Below are positions 40,207-61,795 of a DNA stretch of 64,000 nucleotides, piece after piece. Under the pieces are notes generated by a model. That model had not been told where the DNA came from, did not search any database, and saw only the letters and a list, made by a program, of their open reading frames with translations. Position numbers and translations under genes: made by a program. Each line of letters begins with the position of its first letter. Within the stretch, counting starts at the first letter, position 1. Origin of the DNA: Pseudomonadota bacterium (GTDB lineage: Bacteria; Pseudomonadota; Alphaproteobacteria; Rhodobacterales; Rhodobacteraceae); assembly GCA_020161615.1 (NCBI GenBank), contig JAIUPD010000001.1:124001-188000 (forward strand). The letters run 5' to 3'.

Positions 40207-40231
40207 GATTTCTGTCCAAAGGGGGGAGCCG

Positions 40232-41230: not shown

Positions 41231-41242
41231 CAGGAGGCTGAC

Positions 41243-44372: not shown

Positions 44373-44406
44373 GGGTGGGCCGGACGCATTCCGGCGATCC
44401 GAGGTA

Positions 44407-44419
44407 TCTGTTTTTCAGA
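44407..44419. promoter_or_regulatory. LysR-type box upstream of the P450 operon (site 1)
   Basis: TCTGTTTTTCAGA is a T-N11-A dyad (TCTG-N5-CAGA). It differs at one base from the site beside the lysR gene (59552-59564). It is 35 bp after the VOC stop and about 190 bp before the P450 start, in a leader that also contains ATATTGAAATTGA at 44434-44446. The latter resembles the MarR-side promoter sequence at 40191-40203. Confidence 0.6.
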
Positions 44420-44611
44420 AGATACACCTAAGAATATTGAAATTGACCATATCTCGGGCCTGGTGAACACTCGACCCGAGAACCGCTTGGGGAGGAGCGG
44501 TCCGGCCAGCCCGCCCGGCGCCTTGGCGTCAGGGCCCGGGCATGCGCCGGTCGTCTTCCCCATTCGGACCGGACAGGATCACCGCCCCGGCGGCGAGGGA
44601 GACAGCGCGAC

Positions 44612-45787
44612 GTGACCGAGCAAGTCATCACCGATTACAAGGAAATCACCCGTGTGCTCACGGATCGCTCGATGCGTCAGGCGCTCTATGACGAAGGCGG
44701 GGTGGTGATGGACGACGTGCTGCTGACGCTGCACGGGCGCGAGCATCACGCGCGGCGGGTGCTGGAATTCTCGATCCTGCGCAAGGATTATTTCGCCTAT
44801 TACGAGCAGCAGGTCTTCCCGCCCGCGCTGGCGCAGGTGATCGGGCCGCTGGCCGCGGGCGGGCGCATGGATCTGGTGGATTTCGGCTACCGCGTGACGA
44901 TGAACCTGACGGCCGATTTCGCCGGCATCGACCGCCCCGAGAAATCCGCCGAGGAGACCGAGCGCCTGCTGAAGCTGGTCAAGACCTTCTCGGAAGGCGC
45001 GACGCTGGTGCATTCGACCCGCGACAAGGACGAGGTTCGCGCCGAGGTCCGCGCGGGGCTGGAAGAGCTGCGCGAGACCTTCCTCGCCCCCTCGATCGCC
45101 CGGCGTCAGGCGGCGCTGGACCGGGGCGACGCAGACCTCCCGCGCGACGTGCTGACGCTGCTGCTGCGCGACCGGGAAAAGCACGGGCTCTCGGATGACG
45201 TGATCCTGCGCGAGATGGCCTTCTTTCTTCAGGCGGGCTCGCATTCCACGGCCAATTCCACCGTCCATGCCCTGCACGAGATCTTCCTGCGCTGGCCGAC
45301 CGTCGAGGCCCGCGCGGCGCTGCGGCAGGACCCGCTCTATGTCCAGCGCTGCGTGCACGAGAGTTTCCGCCTGCACCCGGCCAGCCCCGTCGCCTGGCGC
45401 CGGCCCGAGGCCTCCTGTCCCATGTCCGCCGAGGGGCGGGTGGAACTGAACTTCGCCGCCGCCAACCGTCAGCGCGACATCTTCGGCGAAACGGCCGACG
45501 ATTTCGACCCCGACCGCGCCCCGCCCGAAGGTGTGCCGCGCTGGGGCCTGACCTTCGGTTTCGGCATGCATATGTGCCTCGGCCGCGATCTGGACGGGGG
45601 CCTGCCCGCCGGGCCCGATACCGACCCCGCCACGCATCAATACGGCATCGTCACGCAGTTGGTGCGCACGCTGCTGGCCCGCGACGTGCGGCCCGATCCC
45701 GATAACCCCGCCGTGCAGGACACCCGCACGCTGCGGCAGAACTTCTCGTCCTATCCCGTCCTTCTGAATACCGAGCCCGCCGCATGA
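44612..45787 (+). CDS. Cytochrome P450, paralogue 1
   Basis: A 391-residue P450. The heme Cys322 is in FGFGMHMCLGRDL, the ExxR motif is ESFR in HESFRLHPASP, and the meander reads DDFDPDR. The I helix has Ala208-Gly-Ser-His211-Ser-Thr, so the usual acidic residue is absent. After the heme loop an insertion (DGGLPAGPDTDPATHQYG) replaces the standard L helix. It is homologous throughout to the second P450 at 47986. The start is GTG with a GAGGGAG site. The substrate is unknown. It leads the operon that runs on to the SDR, ThuA and second P450 genes. Confidence 0.88.
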   Translation: MTEQVITDYKEITRVLTDRSMRQALYDEGGVVMDDVLLTLHGREHHARRVLEFSILRKDYFAYYEQQVFPPALAQVIGPLAAGGRMDLVDFGYRVTMNLTADFAGIDRPEKSAEETERLLKLVKTFSEGATLVHSTRDKDEVRAEVRAGLEELRETFLAPSIARRQAALDRGDADLPRDVLTLLLRDREKHGLSDDVILREMAFFLQAGSHSTANSTVHALHEIFLRWPTVEARAALRQDPLYVQRCVHESFRLHPASPVAWRRPEASCPMSAEGRVELNFAAANRQRDIFGETADDFDPDRAPPEGVPRWGLTFGFGMHMCLGRDLDGGLPAGPDTDPATHQYGIVTQLVRTLLARDVRPDPDNPAVQDTRTLRQNFSSYPVLLNTEPAA

Positions 45788-46530
45788 GCCAGAAATCCGT
45801 CATCGTCACCGGCGGGGCCGCCGGCCTCGGCCAGGGGATCGCCCTGAAATTCGCGGCCGAGGGGTTCCGGGTCGGCGTTCTCGACCTCGACCCCGCCGCG
45901 ACCGAAGCGGCGGCCAAGGCGCTGCCCGATGCCGTGGCCCTCGTTGCGGATGTGACCGACGAGGCCGCCGTTCAGGCCGCTGTCGACCGCTTCGGCGCCC
46001 CCGATGTGCTGGTCAACAATGCGGGCATCCTGTCTTTGGGCGCGCTGATCGACCAGACGCCCGCGCAATTCCGCAAGGTGCTGGACGTGCATGTCATGGG
46101 CACGTTCACCTGCGCGGGCATCGCCGCGCGGGCGATGCGCGACGCGGGCAAGGGCGGCGCCATCGTCAACCTGACCTCGATCAACGCGGTGACGCCCGGG
46201 CCGGGCTCGGGCGCCTATCCGGCGGCGAAGGCGGCCATCGCCAAGCTGACCGAGCACATGGCGGTGGAATGGGGCCCGCTCGGCATCCGGGTCAATTGCG
46301 TGGCGCCGGGCTTCATCGACGGCGGCATGTCCGCGCCCTTCTACGCCGACCCCAAGGTTCGCGCGGTGCGCGGCGGGGCGGTGCCCTACGGCGGGCTGGG
46401 CCAGGTCGAGGATATCGCCGAGGCGGTCTGGTATCTTGCCAGCGACAAGGCGCGCTATGTCAGCGGCCATCAGCTTGTCGTGGATGGCGCCGTGACCCAC
46501 AGCCTGCTGCGCGCGCTGCCGAGGGAATGA
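45784..46530 (+). CDS. SDR family oxidoreductase
   Basis: A 248-residue classical SDR with GGAAGLGQG, NNAG and the complete catalytic set (Ser in LTSINA, Tyr145 and Lys149 in YPAAK). The ending RYVSGHQLVVDGAVTHS is typical. It overlaps the P450 stop by four bases (ATGA), which suggests it oxidises the alcohol made by the P450. An Asp after beta strand 2 (VLDLD) favours NAD. Confidence 0.92.
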   Translation: MSQKSVIVTGGAAGLGQGIALKFAAEGFRVGVLDLDPAATEAAAKALPDAVALVADVTDEAAVQAAVDRFGAPDVLVNNAGILSLGALIDQTPAQFRKVLDVHVMGTFTCAGIAARAMRDAGKGGAIVNLTSINAVTPGPGSGAYPAAKAAIAKLTEHMAVEWGPLGIRVNCVAPGFIDGGMSAPFYADPKVRAVRGGAVPYGGLGQVEDIAEAVWYLASDKARYVSGHQLVVDGAVTHSLLRALPRE

Positions 46531-46534
46531 GCGC

Positions 46535-47215
46535 ATGCGGGCCCTGATCCTCAGCGGTGGCATTTACCACGATTTCGACCAGCTCGGCGCGGCGCTGGCC
46601 GGGATCCTGTCGGCGCAGGGCTTCCGCTGCGAGATCGTCACCCATCCCGACGCGCTGGCCGCCGCGCTGGCGGAACCGGCGGATCTGGTGGCGGTGCAGG
46701 CGCTGCGCTGGCGGATGCTGGGGCACGAGAAATACGAACCCTTCCGCGCCGACTGGGCCTATCAGGCCGAACCCGGCCTGATCGCCGCGCTGGAGGGCCA
46801 TGTCGCCCGGGGCGCCGGTCTGCTGGCGCTGCATACCGGCTGCATCTGCTTTGATGACTGGCCCGCCTGGCTGGACCTGCTGGGCGGCGGCTGGGTCTGG
46901 GGGCAGAGCTTTCACGCGCCGGATCTGGAGCCCGTGACGGCGACGCCGGTCCCGGGCCATCCGGTGACCGAGGGGCTCGCGCCCTTCACCGTCACCGACG
47001 AACATTACCGCGCGCTGCGCCTCGACCCCGGGGTGACGGTGCTGGCCGAAGGGCACAGCACGGGCGGGGACTTCCCGCTGGCCTGGGCCAAGGGCCGGAC
47101 GGTGACGCTGACCACGGGCCATGACCTCGCCTCGCTGACCGAGCCGGGGCAAGCGGCTTTCATCGCCCGCGCCGCGCGCTGGGCGGCAGGCATGACGGGA
47201 GAGACCAGAGCATGA
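46535..47215 (+). CDS. ThuA-like domain protein
   Basis: A 226-residue protein with the class I amidotransferase-like ThuA fold: [15 protein letters not shown] at the start, [15 protein letters not shown] in the nucleophile elbow region, and GHPVTEGL. ThuA members are linked to sugar and trehalose breakdown and may be oxidoreductase partners or hydrolases; the exact reaction is not known. Its presence between two SDR genes in a tightly packed operon suggests a role in the same pathway. It overlaps the next SDR gene by four bases. Confidence 0.85.
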
Positions 47216-47973
47216 AACCGATGAGCGAGATGTCCGTTCTGATCACCGGCGGCGGCTCGGGCATTGGCGAGGGCACGGCCCGCCATTTCGCCCGCCACGG
47301 CGCCCGCGTCACGATCTGCGGCCGGCGCGAGGAAAAGCTGAAAGCGGTCGCGGACAGCATCGGCCCGGCCTGCGCCTATGTGGTGGCCGACATCACCAAG
47401 GACGCCGATTGTGCCCGGATCATCGAGGCCGCGGTCGCCCATGGCGGCGGCCTTGATGCGTTGATCAACAACGCGGGCAACATGCTGCGCGGCCCGATTG
47501 CCGAGATGACCCGCGAAGCCCTGACCGAGGTTTTCGACAGCAATGTCGTTTCGGGCATGATCCTGACCGGCCTCGCCCTGCCGCATCTGTCGGCGCGCAA
47601 GGGTTCGATCATCTTCCTCGGCTCGGTCCACACGCGGCGCGCTTATCCCGGCGCCTCGCCCTATGCCGCGACCAAGGGCGCGGTCGAGGTTCTGGCCAAG
47701 GTGCTGGCCGCCGAACTGGGGCCGCAGGGCGTACGGGTCAATTGCGTGATCCCGGGCGCGGTCTCGACCGAACTCAACATCCGCGCCGGGCTGGTGACCG
47801 AAGACCAGCAGCGCGTCCGCATGAAGGCGCTGGAAAGCTCGCACGCTTTGGGCCGCATCGGCACCGAAGAGGAACTGGCCGAGGGCATCGCCTATATGGC
47901 CTGCGCCGAATGGGTGACGGGGACCTCGCTGGTGGTGGACGGCGGGCTGTCGCTGGGCATTTCCAATCTGTAA
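47212..47973 (+). CDS. SDR family oxidoreductase
   Basis: A 253-residue SDR with [17 protein letters not shown] and Tyr151/Lys155 in YAATKGA; the catalytic Ser lies in [16 protein letters not shown] after strand 2 suggests NADP preference. In-frame Met4 and Met7 are alternative starts; the ATG at 47212 overlaps the ThuA stop, so it is kept. It precedes the second P450 by 12 bp and ends with [11 protein letters not shown]. Confidence 0.92.
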
Positions 47974-47985
47974 CGGAGGCAAGAG

Positions 47986-49185
47986 ATGACGCATCAGATC
48001 AACGCCTATCCGCAGGTCGAACCCACACTGCGCCTGCCGGACCTGAAACAGGCGCTTTACGATGGCGACCCGCTGTTTCTGCCGACCACGGTGGTCAGCC
48101 TGCATGGCGACGAGCACAAGGAAAAGCGCCGGGTGGTGCAGAGCCTCTTCACCCGCGAATTCTTCCGCAATTATCAGAATCATGTCTTCCCCGAGGCGCT
48201 GGAGGAAACGCTGGCCCCGGTATTGGCCGAAGGGCGGGGGGATCTGAGCCGCTTCGCCTATCGGGTGCTGGCGAACCTTGTGGCCGATGCCGCCGGGCTC
48301 GACCGCGACCGGACCGAGGTGCAGACCGACCGGATCCTGATGATCATCGGCAAGCTGGGCAAGGCGCCGACCATCGGCCAGATGCTGTCTGGCAGTGTCG
48401 AGGCGGCGCGGGCCGAGATCCGCGAAGCGCTGGCGATCTTCAAGGACGAATTCTACGCCCATTCCGCCGCCCGCCGCCGCGCCCTGCTGGCGGCGCATGC
48501 CAAGGACCCCTCGGTCGAGTTGCCGCGCGACATGCTGCTTTACATGCTGCGCGCCTATGACGGGCGGATCGAGGAGGACCAGCTGGTCCGCGACACCGCC
48601 TTCTTCATCCTGGCGGGCGCCTTCACCCAGGCCAATGCCTTGCAGAACACGGTCTGGGAAATCCTGACCTGGTGCGAGGCCAGGCCCGAAACGCGGGCGG
48701 AACTGCTGGCCGATCCTGCGCTCTTGCAGAAATTCATCTGGGAATCCCTGCGACTGCACCCGGCCAGCCCGGTCGCCCGGCGCAAGGCGCTGTGCCCCAT
48801 GCACCTGCCCGATGGCACGGATGTGGACACCGGCCAAATCGTCGATGTGAACATGGCCCGCGCCAACCGCGATCCCGAGGTTTTCGGCGCGGATGCTGCG
48901 ACCTTCAACCCCTACCGCGAATTGACCGGCCGGGTGCAGCTCTATGGCATGACCTTCGGCGCGGGCATGCATTCCTGCGTCGGGCGGATCCTCGCCGCCG
49001 GGTTGCCGATCCGCCCGGGCGTCGAGGGCGAGGACGAGACCGAATACGGCACGCTGCACGCGGTGGTCCACGCGCTTTTGGAGAACGGGATCGCCTTCGA
49101 TCCCGCGAACCCGCCCAAGATCGATGATTCGACCGAGCGCAAGCATTTCGAGAGCTTCCCCTTCCTTCTGCCGGGAAAGGGCTGA
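47986..49185 (+). CDS. Cytochrome P450, paralogue 2
   Basis: A 399-residue P450. The heme Cys331 is in FGAGMHSCVGRIL, the ExxR motif is ESLR in WESLRLHPASP, and the meander reads ATFNPYR. The I helix has Ala210-Gly-Ala-Phe213-Thr-Gln, again without the acidic residue. The post-heme insertion (IRPGVEGEDETEYG) and many blocks, e.g. QALYDGDPL, match the first P450, so they arose by duplication. A GGAGG site precedes the ATG. The pair may act on successive intermediates. It is followed within 3 bp by a flavoprotein. Confidence 0.9.
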   Translation: MTHQINAYPQVEPTLRLPDLKQALYDGDPLFLPTTVVSLHGDEHKEKRRVVQSLFTREFFRNYQNHVFPEALEETLAPVLAEGRGDLSRFAYRVLANLVADAAGLDRDRTEVQTDRILMIIGKLGKAPTIGQMLSGSVEAARAEIREALAIFKDEFYAHSAARRRALLAAHAKDPSVELPRDMLLYMLRAYDGRIEEDQLVRDTAFFILAGAFTQANALQNTVWEILTWCEARPETRAELLADPALLQKFIWESLRLHPASPVARRKALCPMHLPDGTDVDTGQIVDVNMARANRDPEVFGADAATFNPYRELTGRVQLYGMTFGAGMHSCVGRILAAGLPIRPGVEGEDETEYGTLHAVVHALLENGIAFDPANPPKIDDSTERKHFESFPFLLPGKG

Positions 49186-49188
49186 GCC

Positions 49189-50670
49189 ATGGCCGGCACC
49201 GCCCCTGACTGGGACCTCAGCGCCGACATCGTGGTCGTGGGCTTCGGCTGCGCCGGGCTGGCGGCGGCGATCACCGGCTGGCGCGCGGGGGCCGAGGTGC
49301 TTGTGCTGGAAAAGCAGCCTGAGGGCGCGCATACCCCCTCGACCCGGATGTCGGGCGGCATGATGATGGCGGTGACCGACCCCGGTCCCGCCACCGCCTA
49401 CCTCGACCGCTGCGCGGGCGGCATGGTCCCGCGCGACATCAGCGCCGCCTGGGCAGAACGTGCCGTGACGCTGATCGACTGGCTGACCGAGATCGCGCCG
49501 GAACTGGACCTGCGCCGGGTCGGCGGGGCCGAGCATCCCGATTTCCCGGGGGCCGAGGCCTTCGGTGTCTTCCAGCCGGGCGGGGCGAAGACCCGACTCG
49601 ACCTCAACGGCAAGGCGGGGCCCTTCCTGTGGGAGAAACTCGCGCAGAACTTCCATGCCAAGACCGGGGTGCCCGTCCTTTGGGACAGCCCGGCCGACCG
49701 GCTGATCCGCGATGCCTCGGGCCGCGTCATCGGCGTGGAAACCGCCGCCGGGCTCCGGGTCGAGGCGCGCAAGGGCGTGGTGCTGACCTGCGGCGGCTAT
49801 TTGCACAACGCGACGATGAAGCGCGATTTCCTGCGCACCTGGCCGGTCTATTTCTACGGCAACCCGGGCAATACCGGCGACGGCGTGCGCATGGCGCAGG
49901 AAGTCGGGGCGGATCTGTGGCACATGAACCAGATGATCGGCCGGGCCATCGGCAATTTCACGCTCGACGACGGCTCGGACCTGTCGGTCATGCTGTTCCT
50001 GAACCCGCCCGGCTATGTGATCACCGACCGCCACGGCAAGCGCTTCGCCGATGAGAGCACGCAGGCCAATCTGCTGCACGGCTTCTATTACCACCTGCTG
50101 GCCTATGATCCCGAAACCGGCGAGACCCCGCGCAACCCCTGCTATTGGTTCTTCGACGAACGCCGCCGCAAGGCGGGGATGCTGACGCTGCCCTCGGTGG
50201 GCGTGCATGCCGTGGGGATCTATCGCTGGAGCGAGGATAACAGCGCCGAGATTGCACGCGGCTGGGTGGCCAGCGGCGCGACCATCGCCGAGGCCGCGCG
50301 CGCGGCCGGTTTGGCCGATCCCGAGGCCGCCGAGGCCGAGGTCGCCGCCTATAACGCCGCCTGCCACGCGGGCACGCCCGATCCCTTCGGCCGACCGGCC
50401 GAGACGATGGTGCCGGTGGATCAGGGGCCGTTCTACTGCGTGCGGCTCTATCCCGGCGGGTCCAACACAACCGGCGGGCCGCGCCGCGACGCGGGCGCGC
50501 GGATCCTGGATACAAGGGGCGCGCCGATCCCCGGGCTCTATGCGGCGGGGGAATTGGGGCAGGCGACGGGCATGCTCTATCCCTCCGACGGCTCGAACCT
50601 GTCCGAAGGTTTCTGCTTCGGTCAGATCGCGGCGGAATCCGCCCTTGCGGATGCGGAGGGGCGGGCATGA
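49189..50670 (+). CDS. FAD-dependent oxidoreductase (fumarate reductase/KstD-like)
   Basis: A 493-residue flavoprotein of the fumarate reductase/3-ketosteroid dehydrogenase group. The FAD motif GFGCAGLAAAI is at residues about 18-28. The central part has NTGDGVRMAQEVGADLWHMNQ and the C-terminus GLYAAGELGQATGMLYPSDGSNLSEGFCFGQIA. It probably introduces or removes a C=C bond next to a carbonyl. The gene overlaps the next SDR by four bases. Electron acceptor and substrate cannot be seen. Confidence 0.87.
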   Translation: MAGTAPDWDLSADIVVVGFGCAGLAAAITGWRAGAEVLVLEKQPEGAHTPSTRMSGGMMMAVTDPGPATAYLDRCAGGMVPRDISAAWAERAVTLIDWLTEIAPELDLRRVGGAEHPDFPGAEAFGVFQPGGAKTRLDLNGKAGPFLWEKLAQNFHAKTGVPVLWDSPADRLIRDASGRVIGVETAAGLRVEARKGVVLTCGGYLHNATMKRDFLRTWPVYFYGNPGNTGDGVRMAQEVGADLWHMNQMIGRAIGNFTLDDGSDLSVMLFLNPPGYVITDRHGKRFADESTQANLLHGFYYHLLAYDPETGETPRNPCYWFFDERRRKAGMLTLPSVGVHAVGIYRWSEDNSAEIARGWVASGATIAEAARAAGLADPEAAEAEVAAYNAACHAGTPDPFGRPAETMVPVDQGPFYCVRLYPGGSNTTGGPRRDAGARILDTRGAPIPGLYAAGELGQATGMLYPSDGSNLSEGFCFGQIAAESALADAEGRA

Positions 50671-51410
50671 GCGCGCTCCCCCTGGACCTCACCGGCAAGC
50701 TGGCCGTCGTGACCGGCGCCGCCTCGGGCATGGGGCGGGCCGAGGCTGCGCTGCTGGCGCAGGCAGGGGCCGAGGTGATCCTCACCGATGTGCTGGACGC
50801 CGAAGGGCAGGCGGCGGCAACCGATCTGGGCATGCGCTACCGCCATCTCGACGTCTCGAAACCCGCCGATTGGGCCGCGCTGGCCGGTGAGATCCGAGCG
50901 GGTCAGGGCAAGGTCGACATCCTTGTCGCCAATGCCGGGGCCAATGGATCGGCCGCGCCGGATGTCCTGTCCTCCGACCTGCTGCAGAAGCTGGTCGCCA
51001 TCAACCTCAACGGCACCTTCCTGGGCCTGCAAGCGCTGGTGCCGCTGATGGGGCAGGGCGCTTCCATCGTCACCGTGGGTTCGATCTGCGCCCGGGTCGG
51101 TACGCCCGGCGTGCATCTGGCCTATCACGCGACCAAGGGAGCGATCCTGGCCTTCACCCGCGCGGCGGCCGCCGAATTCGGCCCGCGCGGCATCCGGGTC
51201 AATTGCGTGCATCCCGGCGTCATGCCGCCGATGCGCGACCGGCAGGGCGCCAGCCATGCCACCCGCGACAAGCTGATCGAGCGGATCCCCCTGCGCCGGA
51301 CCGGCGACTGGGACGATGTGGCAAAGGTGGTGCTGTTTCTCGCCTCGGAGGCGGCGGGCTATGTGACCGGGACGGATATTCCCGTCGACGGCGGCTTTCT
51401 GGCGACCTGA
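50667..51410 (+). CDS. SDR family oxidoreductase
   Basis: A 247-residue SDR with VTGAASGMGRAEA, ANAG (motif variant of NNAG), Ser in VGSICA and Tyr153/Lys157 in YHATKGA. LTDVLD after strand 2 suggests NAD. It ends with GYVTGTDIPVDGGFLAT. The start overlaps the flavoprotein stop (ATGA), and the OYE gene follows by one base, so they form one unit. Confidence 0.92.
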   Translation: MSALPLDLTGKLAVVTGAASGMGRAEAALLAQAGAEVILTDVLDAEGQAAATDLGMRYRHLDVSKPADWAALAGEIRAGQGKVDILVANAGANGSAAPDVLSSDLLQKLVAINLNGTFLGLQALVPLMGQGASIVTVGSICARVGTPGVHLAYHATKGAILAFTRAAAAEFGPRGIRVNCVHPGVMPPMRDRQGASHATRDKLIERIPLRRTGDWDDVAKVVLFLASEAAGYVTGTDIPVDGGFLAT

Positions 51411-51411
51411 G

Positions 51412-52542
51412 ATGCAGATGAAAGCCCCCCTCACCGATCCTTCCGTCCTCCTCGCCCGCCCGCTGACGCTGGCCGGGCTGGCGCTGCGCAACCGGCTGGT
51501 GATGGCACCGATGACCCGCGAGGCGGCGCCGGATGGCGTGCCGACGTCCGAGATGGCGGCCTATTACGCCCGCCGGGCCGAGGGCGGCGCGGGACTCCTG
51601 ATCACCGAGGGCGCGGCGCCGAACGAAGAAGGCCGTTTCGGCCGCGACGTGCCTCGGCTCTACGGGGCCGAGGCGCTGAGGGGTTGGGAGAGGGTGGTGG
51701 CGGGCGTCCATGCCGAGGGCGCGGCGATCCTTGCCCAGGTCTGGCATGTGGGCGCCTTCACGCCGTCGCTCGTCGGCATGAATGACACGCTGGCGGTCAC
51801 GCGGCTCAGCCCCTCGGGTCTGGCGGGGCCCGGGCGCGCGCTGGGCCGGGCCATGACCGGGGCCGAGATCGCGCGCACCATCGCCGATTACGCAAAGGCC
51901 GCCCGCGCCGCGCGCGAGGCCGGTTTCGACGGGATCGAGATTCACGCGGCGCATGGCTATCTGCCCGACCAGTTCTTCCACGCCGCCACCAACCGGCGCA
52001 CGGATGGCTATGGCGGCAGCCTCGCCCAACGGGCGCGTTTCGCGGCGGAGCTGGTCATGGCCTGCAAGGACCGGGCGGGCGCGGATTTCCCGGTGATCAT
52101 CAGGATTTCCCAGTGGAAACAGCTCGATTACGCCGCCCGCGTCGCCGAAAGCCCCGAGGAACTGGCCAGTTGGCTCGCCCCCTTGGTCGCGGCGGGGACG
52201 GACGCTTTCCACGTCTCGACCCGTCGCTTCTGGGACCCGGCGTTCCCGGGCAACGAGACGAACCTCGCCGCCTTCGTGCGGCGGCTGAGCAACCGGCCGG
52301 TGATCGCCGTTGGCTCACTCTTGATGGACATCGACTTCAAGGCGGCGCGCGGGAAGCAATACGCGGCGCTGGCGCCCGCCACGCTGGGCTGGGCCGCCGA
52401 GGGGATCGAGCGCGGCGAATTCGACCTCATTGCCAGCGGCCGCGGCCATCTGGCCAATGCCGATCTGGCGGCACGGATCCTGTCGGGGGGCGCGGCGACA
52501 CTCGCCGCCTATGACCGGCGGCATCTGGAGCGGCTGACGTGA
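51412..52542 (+). CDS. NADH:flavin oxidoreductase (Old Yellow Enzyme family)
   Basis: A 376-residue FMN TIM-barrel ene-reductase-type protein. It has the OYE opening LTLAGLALRNRLVMAPMTRE and the substrate-binding His pair in EIHAAHGYLPDQFF. NRRTDGYGGSLAQRARFAAELV and the C-terminal IASGRGHLANADLAARI agree with the family. It may reduce an alpha,beta-unsaturated carbonyl. No Fe-S or second FAD domain is present, so it is the short form. It closes the enzyme block; transporter genes begin 64 bp later. Confidence 0.92.
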   Translation: MQMKAPLTDPSVLLARPLTLAGLALRNRLVMAPMTREAAPDGVPTSEMAAYYARRAEGGAGLLITEGAAPNEEGRFGRDVPRLYGAEALRGWERVVAGVHAEGAAILAQVWHVGAFTPSLVGMNDTLAVTRLSPSGLAGPGRALGRAMTGAEIARTIADYAKAARAAREAGFDGIEIHAAHGYLPDQFFHAATNRRTDGYGGSLAQRARFAAELVMACKDRAGADFPVIIRISQWKQLDYAARVAESPEELASWLAPLVAAGTDAFHVSTRRFWDPAFPGNETNLAAFVRRLSNRPVIAVGSLLMDIDFKAARGKQYAALAPATLGWAAEGIERGEFDLIASGRGHLANADLAARILSGGAATLAAYDRRHLERLT

Positions 52543-52606
52543 ACAAGACGGTCCGGCACGGACCCGGGACGAACGGGCCGCAAGGCCCGGAAAGGGAGGA
52601 GACGGC

Positions 52607-53497: not shown

Positions 53498-53500
53498 GCC

Positions 53501-54385
53501 ATGATGAACCTTCTTCTTGGCTATCAGCCGCTTCTGGACCTGTTCCTGCTGCATCTGGGGCTGGCCTATGCGCAATGGCTGGTGCTGCGCGCCGGTGTCT
53601 TCTCGCTGGGCACGGTCGGGCTGGCCGCGGTAGGCGCCTATACCGGCGGGATCCTGGTCGTGACCTATGGCCTGCCCGCGCCGCTGGCGCTGATCGCCTC
53701 GGCGCTCTCGGGCGGGCTGGTGGCGCTGGCGCTCTCGGTGCCGCTGGCGCGTCTCAGGGGGATCTATCAGGCCATCGCCACGGTCGCCTTCATCCAGATC
53801 GTGCTGTCGCTGAACATCTACGCCACCAATGTGACGGGCGGCGCGCAGGGCATCACCGGCATCCCCAAGACGGTGGGCACGCCGCTGCTGCTGGTCGCGG
53901 GCGCGGTGACCATCTACCTGATGTACGCCATCACCCGCAGTCGCCTGGGCCGTGCCTTCGACGCGATCCGTCAGAACGAGGCCGTCGCCGCCTCGCTCGG
54001 CGTCTCCATCGTGCGCCACCAGACGCTGGCCTTCGTGCTCTCGGGCGCGCTGGCCGGGGTTTACGGCGCGCTCGAGGCCTTCCATTCCTACGCGCTGGTC
54101 CCCTCGCAATTCGGCTTCCCCTACCTCATTGCCATCCTGTCCTATGTCGTCTTCGGCGGCCGGACGAGCCTTTGGGGCCCGATCGTCGGCACCGCCGTGC
54201 TGATCCTGCTGCCCGAGGTGGTGCGCCCGCTGGCCGATGCGCGGATGCTCGTCTTCGGGATCCTCCTGATCCTCACCATCAACTTCCTGCCCAAGGGTAT
54301 CGCCGACACGCTGATCGAGCGCGCCCGGGGCCGGCGGCTGGGCGCCCGTCGTCCGGCCGAGGCCGACACCGCGAAAGGGAGCTGA
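53501..54385 (+). CDS. Branched-chain amino acid type ABC transporter permease LivM
   Basis: A 294-residue second permease with the LivM motifs FSLGTVGLAAVGAYTGGILVV and LGRAFDAIRQNEAVAASLGVSIVRHQTLAFVLSGALAG-type loop. About eight membrane helices. It begins 3 bp after livH and ends 3 bp before the ATPase gene. The partners form the LivHM channel. Confidence 0.92.
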   Translation: MMNLLLGYQPLLDLFLLHLGLAYAQWLVLRAGVFSLGTVGLAAVGAYTGGILVVTYGLPAPLALIASALSGGLVALALSVPLARLRGIYQAIATVAFIQIVLSLNIYATNVTGGAQGITGIPKTVGTPLLLVAGAVTIYLMYAITRSRLGRAFDAIRQNEAVAASLGVSIVRHQTLAFVLSGALAGVYGALEAFHSYALVPSQFGFPYLIAILSYVVFGGRTSLWGPIVGTAVLILLPEVVRPLADARMLVFGILLILTINFLPKGIADTLIERARGRRLGARRPAEADTAKGS

Positions 54386-54388
54386 GCC

Positions 54389-55150
54389 ATGGCCCTCGTC
54401 CTCGACAATCTCAGCAAGCGTTTCGGCGGCGTCGTCGCCTCGGAAAACGTCAACATCACCGTGCCGAAGGGCAAGATCACCGGGCTGATCGGCCCGAACG
54501 GCGCGGGCAAGACTACCATTGTCAACATGATCACCGGTATGCTGGCGGTGAGCGGTGGCACGATCCGGGTGGATGACACCGACATCACCCGCGCCCCGGC
54601 CGATCAGATCTGCCGGGCGGGGCTGGCGCGGACCTTCCAGAACATCCGCATCCTGCCGGAGAACTCGGTGCTGGATAACATCCTCATCGGCTTTCACCGG
54701 CACGAGCGCTGCTCGACCCTCTCGGCGCTTCTGGGCCTGCCCGCCTCGCGTCGCGAAACCGCGGCGATGCGCGCCCGGGCCGAGGCGCTGCTGGAACGCT
54801 TCGGCATGCGGCATCTGGCGGAATATCCGGCGGGGGGCCTGTCCTATGGCCACCAGCGGCGGGTCGAGATGATGCGCGCGCTGGCGTCCGAGCCGGAATA
54901 CATCCTGCTCGACGAGCCCATCGCCGGCATGAACGATGTCGAATCCGACGCGCTGGCGGTCCTCTTCCGGGATCTCGCCGACAGCGGCATCGGCATCCTG
55001 CTCATCGAACACAACCTGCGCTTCGTCACCCGGCTTTGCGAGCATATCTACGTGCTGGACGGCGGGCGCCTCATCGCCGAGGGCGCGCCCGAGGCGGTGC
55101 TTTCGGACCCGGCGGTGCTGACCGCCTATGTCGGAGGCGAGCATGCTTGA
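54389..55150 (+). CDS. ABC transporter ATP-binding protein LivG
   Basis: A 253-residue ATPase. Walker A GPNGAGKTT, signature LSYGHQRRVEM (LSYGxQ form usual for LivG) and Walker B ILLDEPIAGM are present, and the LivG-specific RTFQNIRILPENSVLDNI block is clear. Overlap with livF of 8 bases supports coupled translation. Confidence 0.94.
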   Translation: MALVLDNLSKRFGGVVASENVNITVPKGKITGLIGPNGAGKTTIVNMITGMLAVSGGTIRVDDTDITRAPADQICRAGLARTFQNIRILPENSVLDNILIGFHRHERCSTLSALLGLPASRRETAAMRARAEALLERFGMRHLAEYPAGGLSYGHQRRVEMMRALASEPEYILLDEPIAGMNDVESDALAVLFRDLADSGIGILLIEHNLRFVTRLCEHIYVLDGGRLIAEGAPEAVLSDPAVLTAYVGGEHA

Positions 55151-55856
55151 GATCCGCGACCTTCAGGTCCATTACAACGGCATCACCGCGCTGAGGGGCG
55201 TCTCGCTCGACGTCAAACAGGGCGAGGTCGTGGCGCTGATCGGCCCCAATGGCGCCGGCAAATCCACGCTGGTCAATGCCGTGTCGGGCATCGTCAACCC
55301 CTCGGCCGGCAGCATCGCCTTCGAGGGCAAGCCGCTCCACACCAGCCGCGCCTGGAATATCTCGGGTCTGGGCGTGTTGCAGGTGCCCGAGGGGCGGCAG
55401 GTCTTCCCGCAGCTTACCGTGACCGAGAACCTGCAACTCGGCACCACGGCACTGCGCGGCCGCAAGGCCGAGATCCCGCTGGCCGAGGTCTATACGCTGT
55501 TCCCGATCCTGCGCGAGCGGTCCGAGCAACTGGCGGGCTCGCTGTCCGGCGGCCAACAGCAGATGCTGGCTATCGGCCGGGCACTGATGGGCTCGCCGCG
55601 GCTCTTGCTGCTGGACGAGCCCAGCCTCGGCCTTGCGCCGGTCATCATCGCCCAAGTCTTCGCGGCGCTCCGCACGCTGAAAGAGCGCGGCATGACCATC
55701 CTGCTGATCGAGCAGAACGCGACCCTCGCGCTCGATCTGTCGGATCGGGCCTACATCCTCGAACAGGGCCGCGTGGTGATGTCGGGGGCAAGCAAGGCCC
55801 TCGCCGCCGACGCGGATGTCGTTTCCCACTACCTCGGCGTCACGCCCGAAGGCTGA
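55143..55856 (+). CDS. ABC transporter ATP-binding protein LivF
   Basis: A 237-residue ATPase with Walker A GPNGAGKST, signature LSGGQQQML and Walker B LLLDEPSLGLAP. VPEGRQVFPQLTVTENL is the LivF hallmark. The start at 55143 (MLEIRDLQVHYNG) overlaps livG; an in-frame start 15 bases upstream is possible but less likely. It ends 40 bp before the binding protein gene. Confidence 0.94.
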   Translation: MLEIRDLQVHYNGITALRGVSLDVKQGEVVALIGPNGAGKSTLVNAVSGIVNPSAGSIAFEGKPLHTSRAWNISGLGVLQVPEGRQVFPQLTVTENLQLGTTALRGRKAEIPLAEVYTLFPILRERSEQLAGSLSGGQQQMLAIGRALMGSPRLLLLDEPSLGLAPVIIAQVFAALRTLKERGMTILLIEQNATLALDLSDRAYILEQGRVVMSGASKALAADADVVSHYLGVTPEG

Positions 55857-55896
55857 CGCCCGAGCATCGCAACCCACGTCATACAGGGAGGACAGG

Positions 55897-57021
55897 ATGA
55901 CGAAGGTTTCCAGACTGACAATGAAGGCGCTCCTGGGCGCCACGCTTCTCGCCGGACCCGCCGCAGCGGATGAGGTGAACATCTCGGCGATCCTGTCGAC
56001 GACCGGCACCTATGCCTTTGTCGGCGTGCCGCTGGTCAACGGCATCCGCATGGCGGACGAGGAACTGGCGGCCGCGGGCGGTTATGGCGACCATACGGTC
56101 GCCATCCAGTACGACGACAACCGCTCGGACCGGCAGGAGGCGATCTCGCTGCTGACCCGGCGTGCCAACGTCGATCAGTCCGACCTGATCCTCGGCCCGA
56201 TCGCCTCGTCCGAGGCGATGGCCACGGGCCCCGTCGCGGTGCAGCTGCAAGTGCCGATGTTCACCGTGGCGATGACCTCCGAGGTCCTGCCGCTGGGCGA
56301 GTGGATCTTCAAATCGACCGAAACCGCCGTCACCTACATGCCGCCCCTCGCCAATTACATCGGCGAGACGCTGCAACCGGCGAATTGCTATCTGGTGTCG
56401 ATCCTGGATAACCCAGGCTACATCATCCAGAAGGATGTGTTCCGCGACACGCTCGCCTCGCATGGGGTCGAGATCATCGCCGATGAGGGGATCCTGGCCT
56501 CGGACACCGATTTCACGGCGCTGTCGACCAAGATCGTCGATGCGGACCCCGAGTGCCTCTTCGTCACCACCCCGCCCGAGCAGGCCGCCAATATCATCCT
56601 GCAGGCGCGTCAGGCGGGCCTCGACCCCGACACGATCATCGCGGGTGACACCGGCCTCGGCTCCTCGCAATTCATCAACGCCGCCGGGTCGGCGGGCGAG
56701 GGGACGCTCTTCGTCTCGATCTTCTCCGAGGATTACTCGGACGCAACCCGTGACTTTGCCGAGCGCTATCAGGCCCGCTACGGCATCCCGCCCGACCATT
56801 GGGCCGCAACCGGCTATTCGATGATGTCGATCATCGCCGCGGCGATCAGCAGCATCGAGGGCGAGGTCACGCGCGAGAACCTGCGCGAGGCGATGACCCA
56901 GACCCGCGACGTGCCGGTGCTGATGGGCACGGGCTCCATGACCTTTGGCGAAGGCCGGGTGCCGGTCCATGGCAGCGTCGTGATGCGCGTGCGCGACGGC
57001 GGCTGGGAAGTGGTCCAGTAA
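55897..57021 (+). CDS. Periplasmic substrate-binding protein of the Liv-type importer
   Basis: A 374-residue type I binding protein with a signal peptide (MKALLGATLLAGPAAA) and the family features NISAILSTTGTYAFVGVPLVNGIRMADEEL, LILGPIASSEAMA and FVSIFSEDYSD. It captures the ligand for LivHMGF, which precedes it. GGGAGGA at 55886-55892 sets the start at 55897. The ligand is probably the compound the cluster breaks down rather than an amino acid. Confidence 0.92.
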   Translation: MTKVSRLTMKALLGATLLAGPAAADEVNISAILSTTGTYAFVGVPLVNGIRMADEELAAAGGYGDHTVAIQYDDNRSDRQEAISLLTRRANVDQSDLILGPIASSEAMATGPVAVQLQVPMFTVAMTSEVLPLGEWIFKSTETAVTYMPPLANYIGETLQPANCYLVSILDNPGYIIQKDVFRDTLASHGVEIIADEGILASDTDFTALSTKIVDADPECLFVTTPPEQAANIILQARQAGLDPDTIIAGDTGLGSSQFINAAGSAGEGTLFVSIFSEDYSDATRDFAERYQARYGIPPDHWAATGYSMMSIIAAAISSIEGEVTRENLREAMTQTRDVPVLMGTGSMTFGEGRVPVHGSVVMRVRDGGWEVVQ

Positions 57022-57023
57022 CC

Positions 57024-58508
57024 ATGGCCGGATTTTCCGGCACCGAGGCACCGGGCGACACGCCCGGTGCCGATGTTACCTGCGACGTGCTGGTGGTGGG
57101 GACAGGGCCGGGCGGCATGGCCGCCACCGCGGCCGCGGCCGCCACCGGGGCCGAGGTCCATGTCATCGAGGCGCTGGACGCCATCGGCGGCAATTCGGTC
57201 TGGTCCACCGGCTACATGGCTTTCGTCAACTCCCGTGCCCAGGCCGAGGCCGGGATCAAGGACAGCGCCGAGGCTTTCCTGGAGGATGCCGACCATTCCA
57301 TCGCTCTGCTCGGCGAGCGCTACCCGATGATCGCCGATCCCGCGCTGATGCGGCTTTTCGCCGAGCACAGCGCCGCCACCTACGACGACCTCATCGCCCG
57401 GGGCGTGCGGTTTTCCCGTTTCATCCCGCGCCCCCTGCAGCACCGCACCGACCGGATGCTGGCGGTCGAGGACATGATGGCCTTCCGCCGCGCCTTCGAG
57501 CCCGATTTCGCTCGACCCAACGTGACGCTGCACCTGACCACCACCGCCCGGCGGCTGGTGACCGAGGGGGGCCGCGTCACCGGCCTGATCGTCGAGGATG
57601 CCACCGGCCGGACCCGCCGCTGGCAGGTGCGTAGGGCGGTGGTCCTGGCCACCGGCGGCTTTCAGGCCAATCCTGAACTCCGCGCGCGGCATGTGCCGGG
57701 GTATCTGGCCCGCGCGCCCTATCTCGGCGTCGATACCTGCCGGGGCGACGGGCATCTGATGGCCGGGGCGGTGGGGGCGGACCTCATCAACATGGCGCAG
57801 GTGCTGCCGCTCGTCATCGTCTCCTCCTCGCTGGTCGAGGATTGCATCGCCGTCACCCGCGACGGCCGCCGCTTCCATGACGAGGCCGGGCCCTACGAGC
57901 GCCGGGTCGAGGCCTTGCAGGCCCAGCCGGGGCGCGAGGCCTGGTACATCATCGACGACGAGACCCTGCGCCGCAAAGGGCAGTTGGTGGCGCAGATGCC
58001 CCGGCCGGGTGTCTCGGCGCCCGATCTTGGCACACTCGCGGCGCAGATCGGGGTGGATCCGGCAGGGCTGGCGGCCTCGGTCGCCGGCTGGAACGACTTC
58101 CTTGCCGGAGGCGCGATGAAGGACCCCGACTTCGGCCGGGTCGTCTTGCCCGAAGGCCGCCGCCCCATCGCAAAGGGGCCGTTTCATGCCCTGCCCATGG
58201 TGGTGGGCTCGAACTTCGTGGCGGGCGGCCTCAGGGTCACGGCGGCGATGCAGGCGGTCGATGTGTTCGGCGCGGCGATCCCCGGGCTTTACGCGGCGGG
58301 CGATGCGGTGGGCGGGCTGAACCCGACGGCGGAACTGGGGGGCATGCGGCTTTGCGGCGGCTTCACCCTGGGCCGGATCGCCGGGACCTCGGCCGCGTTG
58401 GGCCTGAGCGCCCCGGTCGAGGGGCCACGCTTGCAAGGCGCCCATCTGCCCGGCATGGTGGGTACCAGGGTCGCCTTGCAGAACATCCCGGGTGACGGAT
58501 CTCAGTAA
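57024..58508 (+). CDS. FAD-dependent oxidoreductase (fumarate reductase/KstD-like), second copy
   Basis: A 494-residue flavoprotein of the same group as the gene at 49189. FAD motif GTGPGGMAATAAAAATGAEV at about residues 27-45; GGNSVWSTGYMAF, DTCRGDGHLMAGAVGADLINM and the C-terminal GLYAAGDAVGGLNPTAELGGMRLCGGFTLGRIA follow. The start at 57024 is 2 bp after the binding protein gene, so it belongs to that operon. It overlaps the convergent reductase gene by seven bases. It may dehydrogenate a saturated ring or chain. Confidence 0.87.
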   Translation: MAGFSGTEAPGDTPGADVTCDVLVVGTGPGGMAATAAAAATGAEVHVIEALDAIGGNSVWSTGYMAFVNSRAQAEAGIKDSAEAFLEDADHSIALLGERYPMIADPALMRLFAEHSAATYDDLIARGVRFSRFIPRPLQHRTDRMLAVEDMMAFRRAFEPDFARPNVTLHLTTTARRLVTEGGRVTGLIVEDATGRTRRWQVRRAVVLATGGFQANPELRARHVPGYLARAPYLGVDTCRGDGHLMAGAVGADLINMAQVLPLVIVSSSLVEDCIAVTRDGRRFHDEAGPYERRVEALQAQPGREAWYIIDDETLRRKGQLVAQMPRPGVSAPDLGTLAAQIGVDPAGLAASVAGWNDFLAGGAMKDPDFGRVVLPEGRRPIAKGPFHALPMVVGSNFVAGGLRVTAAMQAVDVFGAAIPGLYAAGDAVGGLNPTAELGGMRLCGGFTLGRIAGTSAALGLSAPVEGPRLQGAHLPGMVGTRVALQNIPGDGSQ

Positions 58509-59467
58509 TCGGGCTCGATCACCAGCCGGGCCGACAGCGCGCGCGACGAACAGGGCATGAAGCAATCGTTGCGCGCGCGCTCGGCCGCGGTCAGGAACTG
58601 GTCGCGGTGATCGGGCCTGCCGTCGATGACCCGGGTCATGCACATGCCGCAGACCCCTTCGGTGCAGGAATTGGGCACATCGAGCCCCGCCGCCAGCAGC
58701 GCGTCCAGCGCCGTCTGGCCCTTGGCCACCGTCACCACCTGGCCGCTGCCCGCCACCTCGATCTCGAAGGCGGAATCGCTGTCGCGTTGTTCGACACTGC
58801 CGGAGAAATACTCGGTACGCACCGCCTCCTCGGGCCAGCCAGCCGCCAGCGCCGCGCCTTTCACCCAGTCCAGAAACCCCGAAGGCCCGCAGATATAGAC
58901 GTGATCTGCCGGCCCCCGTGCCGCGAGCAGGGCCGCCAGCGGCAGGCGCTGGTCCTCGGGGCCGTCATCCAGATGCAGGTGCACCCGGTCGCGGAAGGGC
59001 GCTGCCGCCAACCGGTCGGCAAAAGCCATGCGGGCAGCGGACCGCGCGCAGTAATGCAGCGCAAAGGGGGCGCCCTTGGCCGCCAGCGCCTCGGCCATGG
59101 CCAGAATCGGCGTGACCCCGATCCCGCCTGCGATCAGCAGCGAATGCCCGGCGCCCGGCGCCAGTTCGAAATGGTTCTTTGGCGGGCCGATCATCAGCCG
59201 GTCGCCGGTCGCCACCCGCTCGTGCAGATGTTGCGATCCCCCGCGCGAGGCGGGCTCGCGCAGGACGGCGATCTGATAGCGATCCGTCTCGCCCGGCGCG
59301 TTGCACAGCGAATATTGCCGCGCGGGCAGGCCCGGCAGCATCACGTCGATATGGGCGCCCGCGGTGAAAGCGGGCAGCGTGCCGCCGGTGACGGGTACCA
59401 GATCGAAGCCCAGAATCCCCTCGGCCTCGCGCCGGATCGCGGCGACCCGCATCTCGAGCACGCTCAT
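58502..59467 (-). CDS. PDR/VanB family ferredoxin oxidoreductase
   Basis: A 321-residue one-piece reductase: a flavin-binding beta barrel (ARQYSLCNAP), an NAD-binding domain (LLIAGGIGVTPILAMAEAL) and a C-terminal plant-type 2Fe-2S domain with Cys268, Cys273, Cys276 and Cys302. Such reductases pass electrons from NAD(P)H to Rieske oxygenases such as VanA or, when fused, to P450s. No Rieske oxygenase lies in this window, so the P450s are the likely partners. It is divergent from lysR. Confidence 0.9.
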   Translation of the reverse strand: MSVLEMRVAAIRREAEGILGFDLVPVTGGTLPAFTAGAHIDVMLPGLPARQYSLCNAPGETDRYQIAVLREPASRGGSQHLHERVATGDRLMIGPPKNHFELAPGAGHSLLIAGGIGVTPILAMAEALAAKGAPFALHYCARSAARMAFADRLAAAPFRDRVHLHLDDGPEDQRLPLAALLAARGPADHVYICGPSGFLDWVKGAALAAGWPEEAVRTEYFSGSVEQRDSDSAFEIEVAGSGQVVTVAKGQTALDALLAAGLDVPNSCTEGVCGMCMTRVIDGRPDHRDQFLTAAERARNDCFMPCSSRALSARLVIEPDY

Positions 59468-59551
59468 CGGAACCTCCCTTTTCCCAACTCCCTGATTGCC
59501 AGCTTGCCCAGGACGGAGATATAGTCAAACCGGATATTCTTATGAGTAAAT

Positions 59552-59564
59552 TCTGATTTTCAGA
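59552..59564. promoter_or_regulatory. LysR-type box in the lysR/reductase region (site 2)
   Basis: TCTGATTTTCAGA, a T-N11-A dyad, lies 34 bp before the lysR start and about 85 bp before the divergent reductase start. This is the place expected for autoregulation and activation by a LysR protein. The flanking AT-rich sequence probably contains both promoters. Confidence 0.65.
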
Positions 59565-59598
59565 TGGAGAGCGGCACGGCCCTGGGGAGGGGGCGTCC

Positions 59599-60522
59599 AT
59601 GAAGGCACCGAACTTCACCCTGCGGCAGCTGATGTATTTCGTGGCCGCCGCCAAATACGGCAAGATCGCCAATGCCGCGGTCGAGATCGGGATTTCGCAA
59701 TCGGCGGTGACGACGGCGATCCTGGATCTGGAGCGCACGCTGGGCTTTCCGCTGCTCGACCGCCACGTCAGCGGCGTGACGCTGACCCATCGCGGCCACC
59801 TCTTCCACCAGCACGCCATGAAGGTGCTCGAGGCCGCCGACGAGGCGCAGCGCTGGCCGTTCCAGGCCTCGCTCAACCTGTCAGGCAAGCTCAGGATCGC
59901 GGCCACCCATGTTGTCGTCGGCTATTTCCTGCTGCCCTATCTGGGCAAGTTCCTGGCTGCGCATCCGAAGGTCGAGGTCTCGCTGGAGGAACTGACACGG
60001 CCGGAATGCGAGGATGCGCTGATCGCAGGCAAGGCCGATCTGGGGATCATCCTGACCTCGAACCTGGGCAATCCCGACGATCTGCAGAAGCGCCCGCTGA
60101 TCCAGGCGCAGCGGCGGCTCTGGATCTCGAACAACTCGCCCTTGATGGCGGAAAAGTCGGTGCCGCTGGAGCGGCTGAACGGTCTGCCCTACGTCTTCCT
60201 GATGGTGGACGAGGGCGAGCGGGTCCTGCGCGAACTGGTCCGCCCCTTCGGATTCGAGCCCAACGTGGTCCTGCGCACCACCTCGATGGAGGCGATGCGC
60301 GAATGGATCGGGCTGGGGCTGGGGGTGACCATCGTCGCCGATACGGTTTACCGGCCGTGGTCATTGGAGGGGTTGAAGATCGAGCGCCGCCCGCTTGCCG
60401 ACCCGATCCCGCCCTTGGAAATCGGCCTCGTCTGGCGCAAGGACCGGCCGATGGACGAGGTAACCGAAGGTTTCGCCAGCTTCCTGCGCCAGTCGGTGCC
60501 GGTCAGCGATGGGCTGGACTGA
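59599..60522 (+). CDS. LysR family transcriptional regulator
   Basis: A 307-residue LysR regulator. The winged helix is FTLRQLMYFVAAAKYGKIANAAVEIGISQSAVTTAILDLERTLGF, followed by a ligand-binding domain with two alpha/beta lobes. The divergent reductase and the three matching T-N11-A boxes make it the likely activator of this cluster. GGGGAGGGGG precedes the ATG. It overlaps the convergent MFS gene by 20 bases. Confidence 0.93.
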   Translation: MKAPNFTLRQLMYFVAAAKYGKIANAAVEIGISQSAVTTAILDLERTLGFPLLDRHVSGVTLTHRGHLFHQHAMKVLEAADEAQRWPFQASLNLSGKLRIAATHVVVGYFLLPYLGKFLAAHPKVEVSLEELTRPECEDALIAGKADLGIILTSNLGNPDDLQKRPLIQAQRRLWISNNSPLMAEKSVPLERLNGLPYVFLMVDEGERVLRELVRPFGFEPNVVLRTTSMEAMREWIGLGLGVTIVADTVYRPWSLEGLKIERRPLADPIPPLEIGLVWRKDRPMDEVTEGFASFLRQSVPVSDGLD

Positions 60523-61696
60523 GCCGCCCCAGCCACAGCAGGATCAGGCTGAGGATCGTGGCCCCGGTCAGGACGATCCCGCAGCTGAGGTCATGCTGGG
60601 GGCCGATGCCGACAAGGAAGGTGGACAGCGCCCCGCAGGCCATCTGCGCCGCGCCGAACAGCCCCGCCGCCGATCCGGCCAGTTCCGGCACCGCGTCGAG
60701 CGAGGCGGAAAGCCCGGTCGGGCTGATGCAGCCCGCGGCGAACATCAGCCCCAGCGTCAGCGCGAAGATCAGCGCCGGTGTCATCATCCCGCTCCAGGCG
60801 GCGGCCAGGAACCCGCCCGCCATGGCGATGGCGAAGAGGCCCGCCAGCAGAAAGAACCCGTCGCGTGAGACATGGCCGACCCTGAGCCGCGAGACCCAGG
60901 TCCCGGCCAGCGCGCCCAGGAGGATCCCGCCGACATAAAAACCGACCTCACCGCCCGGTACGCCCAGTTGTTCGTGCAGGATGAAGGGCGCGGCGGCGAA
61001 ATAGCCATAGGTGGTGGTCGAGCCCATCGCACCCCCCAGTGCGATGCAGACGAAGCGGCGGTTGCGGCCCAGCGTGGCGAAGTCGCGGCCCATCTGGCCG
61101 AACCTCAGCGGCTTGCGGTGACGCGCTGTCTCGGGCAGGGACCAGAGCGTCGCGGCCAGCGTGCCCAGCGCCAGCAGCCCCAGCACCAGGAAGATCCCTC
61201 GCCAGTCGGCATAGGCGGCGACGCCCGCGCCCAGCACCGGGCTGATGGCGGGGCCGATCAGCATGACGGTGTTCAGAAGCGAGATGTCGCGCTGCGAGCC
61301 CTCGGGTCCCGCCGCATCCCGGGCGATGGCACGCGCCAGCGCCAGCCCTCCGGCGCCGCCCAGCGCCTGCGTCAGCCGCCCGGCCAGAAGCCAAGGCAGC
61401 GAGGGCGCCAGCGCGCAGAGCAGGCAGCCGACCACGAAGATCCCCAGCGCCGCGATCACCGCCGGGCGCCGCCCCAGCGCGTCCGAAACCGGACCATAGC
61501 CGATCTGCCCCAGCGCGAGCCCCAGCACATAGAGGGTGAGCGAGAGTTGCACCGCGGCACTGCCGACGCCCAGATCCTCGGCGGCATAGGGCAGGGCGGG
61601 GACGAACATATGCATCGCCAGCGTGCCGGTCGAGGCGAGTGCGACCAGCAGGCCCAGCGAGGGCTTTGTCGCGGGGGTCAGGGGGGAAAGGGCCAC
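60503..61696 (-). CDS. MFS transporter, Bcr/CflA family drug efflux type
   Basis: A 397-residue transporter with 12 membrane helices and the MFS signature GPVSDALGRRPAV between helices 2 and 3. The LALARAIARDA block of Bcr/CflA exporters is present. It may export the pathway substrate or a toxic intermediate. GTG 61696 follows a GGAGG site and is preferred over 61732. A LysR-type box lies 80 bp upstream. Confidence 0.9.
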   Translation of the reverse strand: MALSPLTPATKPSLGLLVALASTGTLAMHMFVPALPYAAEDLGVGSAAVQLSLTLYVLGLALGQIGYGPVSDALGRRPAVIAALGIFVVGCLLCALAPSLPWLLAGRLTQALGGAGGLALARAIARDAAGPEGSQRDISLLNTVMLIGPAISPVLGAGVAAYADWRGIFLVLGLLALGTLAATLWSLPETARHRKPLRFGQMGRDFATLGRNRRFVCIALGGAMGSTTTYGYFAAAPFILHEQLGVPGGEVGFYVGGILLGALAGTWVSRLRVGHVSRDGFFLLAGLFAIAMAGGFLAAAWSGMMTPALIFALTLGLMFAAGCISPTGLSASLDAVPELAGSAAGLFGAAQMACGALSTFLVGIGPQHDLSCGIVLTGATILSLILLWLGRLSPAHR

Positions 61697-61775
61697 GGAT
61701 CCTCCATCCTTGGCGGCCCGCCCAGCCTGCAACCATGCCGCGCGCGCGAAAAGACGAAAATGCGCGGCGGCAATA

Positions 61776-61788
61776 TCGGTTTTTCAGA
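61776..61788. promoter_or_regulatory. LysR-type box upstream of the MFS gene (site 3)
   Basis: TCGGTTTTTCAGA matches site 1 at 12 of 13 positions and keeps T-N11-A. It lies 80 bp before the MFS start and 8 bp after the universal stress protein stop on the same strand. Confidence 0.5.
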
Positions 61789-61795
61789 TCGCGCC

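Follow-up and report, generated by a model that had tools for sequence, protein, structure and literature searches.

The stretch of DNA analyzed here, referred to as the window, comprises 64,000 nucleotides (positions 124,001 to 188,000 of contig JAIUPD010000001.1, assembly GCA_020161615.1) from a bacterium of the Rhodobacteraceae. It carries a cluster in which a cytochrome P450 gene (P450a) is followed by genes for a short-chain dehydrogenase/reductase (SDR), a ThuA-type protein, another SDR, a second P450, an FAD dehydrogenase, a further SDR, a protein of the Old Yellow Enzyme type, a branched-chain-type ABC transporter with its binding protein, and a second FAD dehydrogenase. These genes, among which the ABC permease and ATPase genes were named by eye, are likely to form one operon. 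A reductase gene on the opposite strand, a LysR-type regulator gene (lysR) divergent from it and a gene for an exporter of the major facilitator superfamily (MFS) complete the locus. A preliminary description of the window had pointed to three 13-mers with the geometry of LysR sites (T-N11-A) at 44407, 59552 and 61776, before the P450 operon (site 1), in the lysR/reductase gap (site 2) and before the exporter (site 3), and proposed that they tie these distant genes to one regulator. Our analysis supports this link by conservation of the sites and their co-occurrence with LysR, most weakly at site 3. We suggest, with a probability of roughly 0.8, that a single LysR regulon covers the P450 operon, the reductase gene, lysR itself and probably the exporter gene.

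The alignments identify as functional unit the dyad ATCTGA-N3-TCAGAT with its near forms, within which T-N11-A is invariant, rather than the T-rich 13-mer. Close relatives of the window LysR occur in Pararhodobacter aggregans (99%), Pontibrevibacter nitratireducens (72%) and a Gemmobacter metagenome-assembled genome (MAG) (64%), and the lysR/reductase gap of all three contains this dyad or a near form with a differing center. The T-rich, A-rich or mixed centers of the orthologous sites rule out TCKGWTTTTCAGA as the functional unit; of the consensus first described, T-N11-A is conserved and the T-tract is not. The dyad is part of a larger composite in which TTGACYATA stands exactly 36 bp from it, counted between TCTG and TTGAC, at both the P450 and the reductase promoters. 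Site 2 read on the minus strand and site 1 on the plus strand share 33 identities in the best gapless 45 positions, whereas 300 shuffles average 22.6 and never exceed 28. In a gapless alignment of ten promoters, those of P450 and reductase from five genomes, ATC, AGA, AT and TTGAC-ATA are invariant at fixed spacing. The composite precedes both genes in all five examined genomes with close P450 and LysR orthologues. The fifth of these, G559, was found through P450 and LysR protein homology after the pattern had been fixed; its reductase site is ATCTATTTTTCAGAT, and its P450 site, ATCGAAAAAGCAGAT, retains the outer arms and the register. The LysR geometry claimed for the sites, T-N11-A, is kept in 10/10 composite promoters as well as in 4/4 exporter sites. 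On this comparative evidence, the sites are significant through their position, spacing and recurrence taken together, not through the dyad alone.

The three 13-mers are indeed present as exact matches, and the positions of the open reading frames (ORFs) bear out that all three are intergenic (Table 1). No further match occurs in the window at up to two mismatches. Their claimed rarity holds for the 4.87-Mb genome, where the exact consensus has four matches, three of which are the window sites, but not for the window, where the shuffle mean is 1.24 and 15 of 100 shuffles attain the count of three at up to two mismatches. The consensus being drawn from these very sites, the window count is insufficient by itself and the genome count is partly circular, so that conservation in other genomes is the stronger evidence. 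Allowing one mismatch adds eight matches in the genome, every one outside the window. The fourth exact match, TCTGATTTTCAGA at L057:5981-5993 (G000:C6:243980-243992), lies in a divergent gap between genes that we named by eye as alpha/beta-hydrolase-like and carotenoid-oxygenase-like; we excluded it as a regulon member, since TTGACYATA does not stand in register with it. Neither of the two outcomes that the preliminary description named as speaking against its proposal, many equal matches in unrelated intergenic regions or a lack of conservation in related clusters, was observed.

The composite is specific. The pattern TCTGN5YAGA-N23-TTGACYATA has two matches in its own genome at up to two mismatches, where the reversed control has none. 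Across 394 genomes of the family, at up to one mismatch, it gave 11 matches in 9 genomes and the reversed control 9 matches. Three of the 11 are exact, namely the two promoters of the window and the P450 promoter of the Gemmobacter MAG (G325); the fourth is the reductase promoter of the Gemmobacter MAG, and the remaining seven are single matches. A profile of the ten promoters (R1) retrieved from the window's genome only the two window promoters, with 54.1 and 51.4 bits among the 150 of 193 candidates that were scored, although matches of the profile to the promoters from which it was built are by construction.

Table 1. Sites, putative promoters and genes of the proposed regulon (window coordinates).
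Feature	Position	Strand	Remarks
Site 1, dyad ATCTGTTTTTCAGAA	44406..44420, center 44413	+	Before P450 operon, between VOC-type gene (end 44372) and P450 gene (44612); aligned with nine other promoters
P450-operon promoter, putative	44443..44471	+	-35 TTGACC 44443-44448; poor -10 AACACT 44466-44471; 17-bp spacer; register conserved
Cytochrome P450 (P450a), first operon gene	44612..45787	+	Orthologues in relatives
Rest of likely operon	45784..58508	+	Presumably a single transcript
Reductase with 2Fe-2S domain	58502..59467	-	Resembles phthalate dioxygenase reductase and the reductase parts fused to P450s
lysR promoter, putative	59496..59525	+	TTGCCA-18-TATAGT; -10 overlaps reductase -35
Reductase promoter, putative	59500..59528	-	-35 TTGACT 59528-59523; very poor -10 AAGCTG 59505-59500
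Site 2, dyad ATCTGAAAATCAGAA	59551..59565, center 59558	-	lysR/reductase gap, between reductase start (59467) and lysR (59599); from alignment
LysR-type regulator	59599..60522	+	HTH_1 62.6 bits, LysR_substrate 140.3 bits, both above Pfam cut-offs
Bcr/CflA-type MFS exporter	60503..61732 (mechanical ORF)	-	Likelier start GTG 61696 after GGAGG, by eye
TTTTCG in -35 register of site 3	61747..61752	-	Within GTCTTTTCG; conserved in four genomes
Site 3, diverged dyad ATCTGAAAAACCGAT	61775..61789, center 61782	-	Before exporter, between usp-type stop (61796) and exporter (mechanical ORF start 61732); from alignment

The protein to which we tie the dyads is a LysR-type regulator that fits no named group among the best 25 of 53 NCBIfam matches, none of which reaches its cut-off (the best, CidR, scored 116.7 bits where 415 are required). 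No NodD-named model is among these best 25 of 53, and no direct comparison with NodD was made. In the window (58502-59599), and likewise in the relatives read, lysR is divergent from the reductase gene with the site between them. More distant homologues carry a comparable element. Among 28 LysR homologues with 38-44% identity, ATC-N9-GAT occurs within 150 bp upstream of 15 of the 19 higher-scoring ones and of 1 of the 9 lower-scoring ones, where shuffles would give 1.7 and 0.2, respectively; the 28 were taken from 42 listed LysR matches, leaving out 12 without loci, the window's own and that of G325. The element also goes with the recognition-helix residue aligned to Thr39 of the window protein, being present in 16 of the 20 homologues with Thr, Ala, Ser or Gly and in none of the 8 with Glu (Fisher p = 0.00016, a value that ignores relatedness and the after-the-fact grouping). 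Thr39 aligns with residue 34 (Arg) of the 5xxp chain, which we take to be CbnR and whose Arg34 presumably contacts DNA. Moreover, TTT[GT][AC] stands in the divergent direction at offset 36, the register of TTTGAC in the window, in 7 of the 16 homologues with a site, compared with 0-2 at any other offset; L028 was counted as a miss, and its listed site does not show the element either. Two of the homologues, L018 and L044, have an in-frame stop (TAG, TGA), and the upstream region of L018 still holds a perfect ATCTGAAAATCAGAT.

We took TTGACY as the -35 box, which would place the dyad center near -65. This spacing is found in 10/10 composite promoters, with poor -10 boxes and predicted starts, and T-N11-A near -65 is the usual layout of LysR recognition sites (PMC8407307, PMC4834489). 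The -10 hexamers 17 bp downstream in the P450 promoters, AACACT, AATACT, AAGACT and AAAGAT, are poor, which would suit promoters that depend on an activator. For lysR, a TTG hexamer stands 17-18 bp upstream of TATAGT in 5/5 genomes. The predicted leaders are a long one of 134 nt for P450 (44478-44611), 26 nt for the reductase and about 21 nt for the exporter if GTG 61696 is the start; the distance from the dyad to the P450 start is similar elsewhere, at 203-222 bp in four genomes. A consensus promoter scan by itself is weak, with two promoter-like sites against 1.1 in shuffles, and a terminator scan of 44300-62000 was uninformative (6 against 6.9 in shuffles). No Rfam match at the gathering score was found in 39000-64000.

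We propose that LysR would bind dyads of the ATCTGA-N3-TCAGAT form at the three places. In the presence of its inducer, LysR would activate both the reductase gene and the P450/ABC-transporter operon, acting from dyads centered near -65 next to the TTGACY -35 box, and at the reductase promoter the inducer would shift the LysR tetramer toward the -35 side. The inducer would probably be an intermediate of the P450 pathway or its substrate. The dyad in the gap would lie just downstream of the lysR start, from where LysR would probably repress its own gene, and LysR would probably also control the exporter from the diverged site. In the gap, TTTGACTATA would serve two opposed promoters, as the -35 box of the reductase and as the TATAGT -10 box of lysR. 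This double duty may explain why TTTGACTATA is kept in 5/5 divergent gaps, whereas the block reads TTGACC in 4/5 of the P450 promoters, which need not accommodate a promoter for lysR. The joint proposition that the residue at the Thr39 position sets the operator class in this branch of LysR regulators, with Thr, Ala, Ser or Gly going with ATC-N9-GAT and Glu not, and that TTTGACTATA combines the reductase -35 with the lysR -10, is tentative, and we would expect it to fail in some part slightly more readily than to hold in full.

The least certain member of the proposed regulon is site 3, which probably is a diverged operator, as the comparison with related exporter regions suggests. Alternatively, it could resemble the other sites by chance or be an operator with a different function, leaving only sites 1 and 2 in the LysR regulon. 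One arm has indeed diverged (CCGAT for CAGAT), TTGACYATA is missing, the profile R1 does not detect the exporter sites, and the Gemmobacter stretches read contain no match to the exporter. Furthermore, the similarity between the window and Pontibrevibacter was reached by 1 of 300 shuffles both at the exporter and at P450; the remaining eight of the ten pairwise upstream comparisons were reached by none. Against this stands that the exporter dyad is accompanied by GTCTTTTCG at a constant distance in four genomes. Site 3 is kept exactly in P. aggregans, beside an insertion or deletion, and the dyad becomes ATCTGAACTCCCGAT in Pontibrevibacter and ATCAGAATTACCGAT in G559; all four exporter sites are strict ATC-N9-GAT matches. 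The exporter upstream regions of the window and G559, and of Pontibrevibacter and G559, resemble each other more than any of the 300 shuffles, and equally mixed arms occur in ATC-N9-GAT sites upstream of some of the distant LysR homologues. A regulon restricted to sites 1 and 2 is thus the less likely arrangement, though one to be reckoned with.

The dyads might also belong to another regulator altogether, be it the MarR-type protein encoded at 39606-40163 or an unlinked protein. The MarR gene stands at the opposite end of the cluster, homologous clusters retain it, and binding by LysR is itself deduced from sequence. However, the distribution of the composite among these clusters speaks against MarR. 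Homologous P450/SDR/ThuA/amidohydrolase clusters with a MarR gene are found in four genomes of the family (G484, G140, G457 and G346), where ABC-transporter genes are also present, and on a plasmid of Novosphingobium sp. THN1. In the stretches read, none of these five clusters shows a LysR match or, at E up to 5, a match to the profile. Genome-wide, G484 and G346 have no LysR match at 1e-50, nor G140 and G346 at 1e-60, whereas for G457 and Novosphingobium the absence covers the cluster stretches only. Conversely, no MarR match was found in the partial stretches of Pontibrevibacter, Gemmobacter and G559, all of which carry the composite. This pattern disfavors MarR as the binder of the dyads, and the dyads have the geometry of LysR sites and recur upstream of LysR homologues; we therefore consider another regulator improbable. 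Still harder to sustain is the idea that the sites are chance AT-rich 13-mers devoid of a regulatory role. The shuffle frequency of the window count and the one equal match elsewhere in the genome would fit it, but arms and spacing are conserved between genera whose centers and spacers differ, and the composite is specific both genome-wide and family-wide. For sites 1 and 2, chance is already contradicted.

A single LysR regulon is accordingly the reading we prefer, and several further observations weigh against it. The predicted -10 boxes are of poor quality, and those of the reductase promoters are the poorest. Since P. aggregans is almost identical to the window, the number of independent lineages falls to about four. 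ATC-N9-GAT alone is common, with 19 occurrences in the window; it is strict in 6 of the 10 composite promoters, and sites 1 and 2 of the window are not strict matches because both end in GAA. In a single upstream region, ATC-N9-GA[TA] turns up in 7-29% of shuffles. The seven homologues with the offset-36 element share one N-terminal type and may represent a single inheritance.

Two side observations concern the wider cluster. The P450/SDR/ThuA/amidohydrolase core found with MarR and, in the stretches read, without LysR (L077-L080 and L081) suggests that the cluster has exchanged its regulator or gained one. In Pontibrevibacter (L014:6484-9847), Gemmobacter (L015:5637-9010) and G559 (L083:6868-10238), two amidohydrolase genes lie 3' of the reductase gene on the same strand and may there be expressed from the site 2 promoter; the amidohydrolase genes of the window are located at 40166-42604, beside marR. 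In the plasmid collection, 91 records have a LysR match and three a P450a match, all below 60% identity.

Among solved chains, the reductase is closest to 6kbh and 6laa, two long P450 chains that it matches in their C-terminal parts, and to 7ylr (named ferredoxin) and 2pia (phthalate dioxygenase reductase). Because it shares its operator with the P450 operon, the reductase is probably the electron donor of the P450s. The matches of the P450s to solved structures (best E 1.2e-07 and 1.4e-14) are too weak to name a substrate. Our literature searches found nothing on a Pararhodobacter cytochrome P450 with LysR, nor on a degradation LysR divergent from a phthalate dioxygenase reductase with a cytochrome P450. 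The regulon is new and well delimited, while its control mechanism is textbook. It ties a previously uncharacterized cluster with two P450s, an ABC transporter and flavin enzymes, together with a reductase gene on the opposite strand, into one unit that would be co-regulated. A shared element before P450 and reductase genes suggests that the reductase serves the P450s and could help to find the redox partners of orphan P450s. In addition, the precise element offers a handle on the inducer and hence on the substrate, and the correlation between recognition helix and operator could, if true, serve as a specificity rule.

The proposed regulon is best placed among LysR systems by comparison with three known cases. 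In the classical LysR-type regulon, the regulator gene is divergent from its target, a T-N11-A primary site lies near -65, and autorepression proceeds from that site (PMC4834489, PMC8407307). The window LysR is likewise divergent from a target with a T-N11-A dyad between them, and the spacing to the -35 box is consistent with -65; autorepression and activation in the window are predicted. Unlike the classical case, the window has a second copy of the composite before the P450 operon, at a distance of about 15 kb, and its exporter is preceded by a diverged site. The nod box, bound by NodD, contains a palindromic ATC-N9-GAT motif in a 47-bp conserved region (PMC5596368). The composite and exporter sites share this core geometry, strictly in 6 of 10 composite promoters and in all four exporter sites, and the genes of the window are catabolic rather than for nodulation. 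In tetralin degradation, one LysR regulator, ThnR, has primary sites at several catabolic promoters (PMC4834489). Unlike the regulator proposed for the window, ThnR, which we compare by description, is an activator of its own gene and depends on a co-activator. The two systems nevertheless resemble each other in that the window LysR, like ThnR, has candidate sites at several catabolic promoters.

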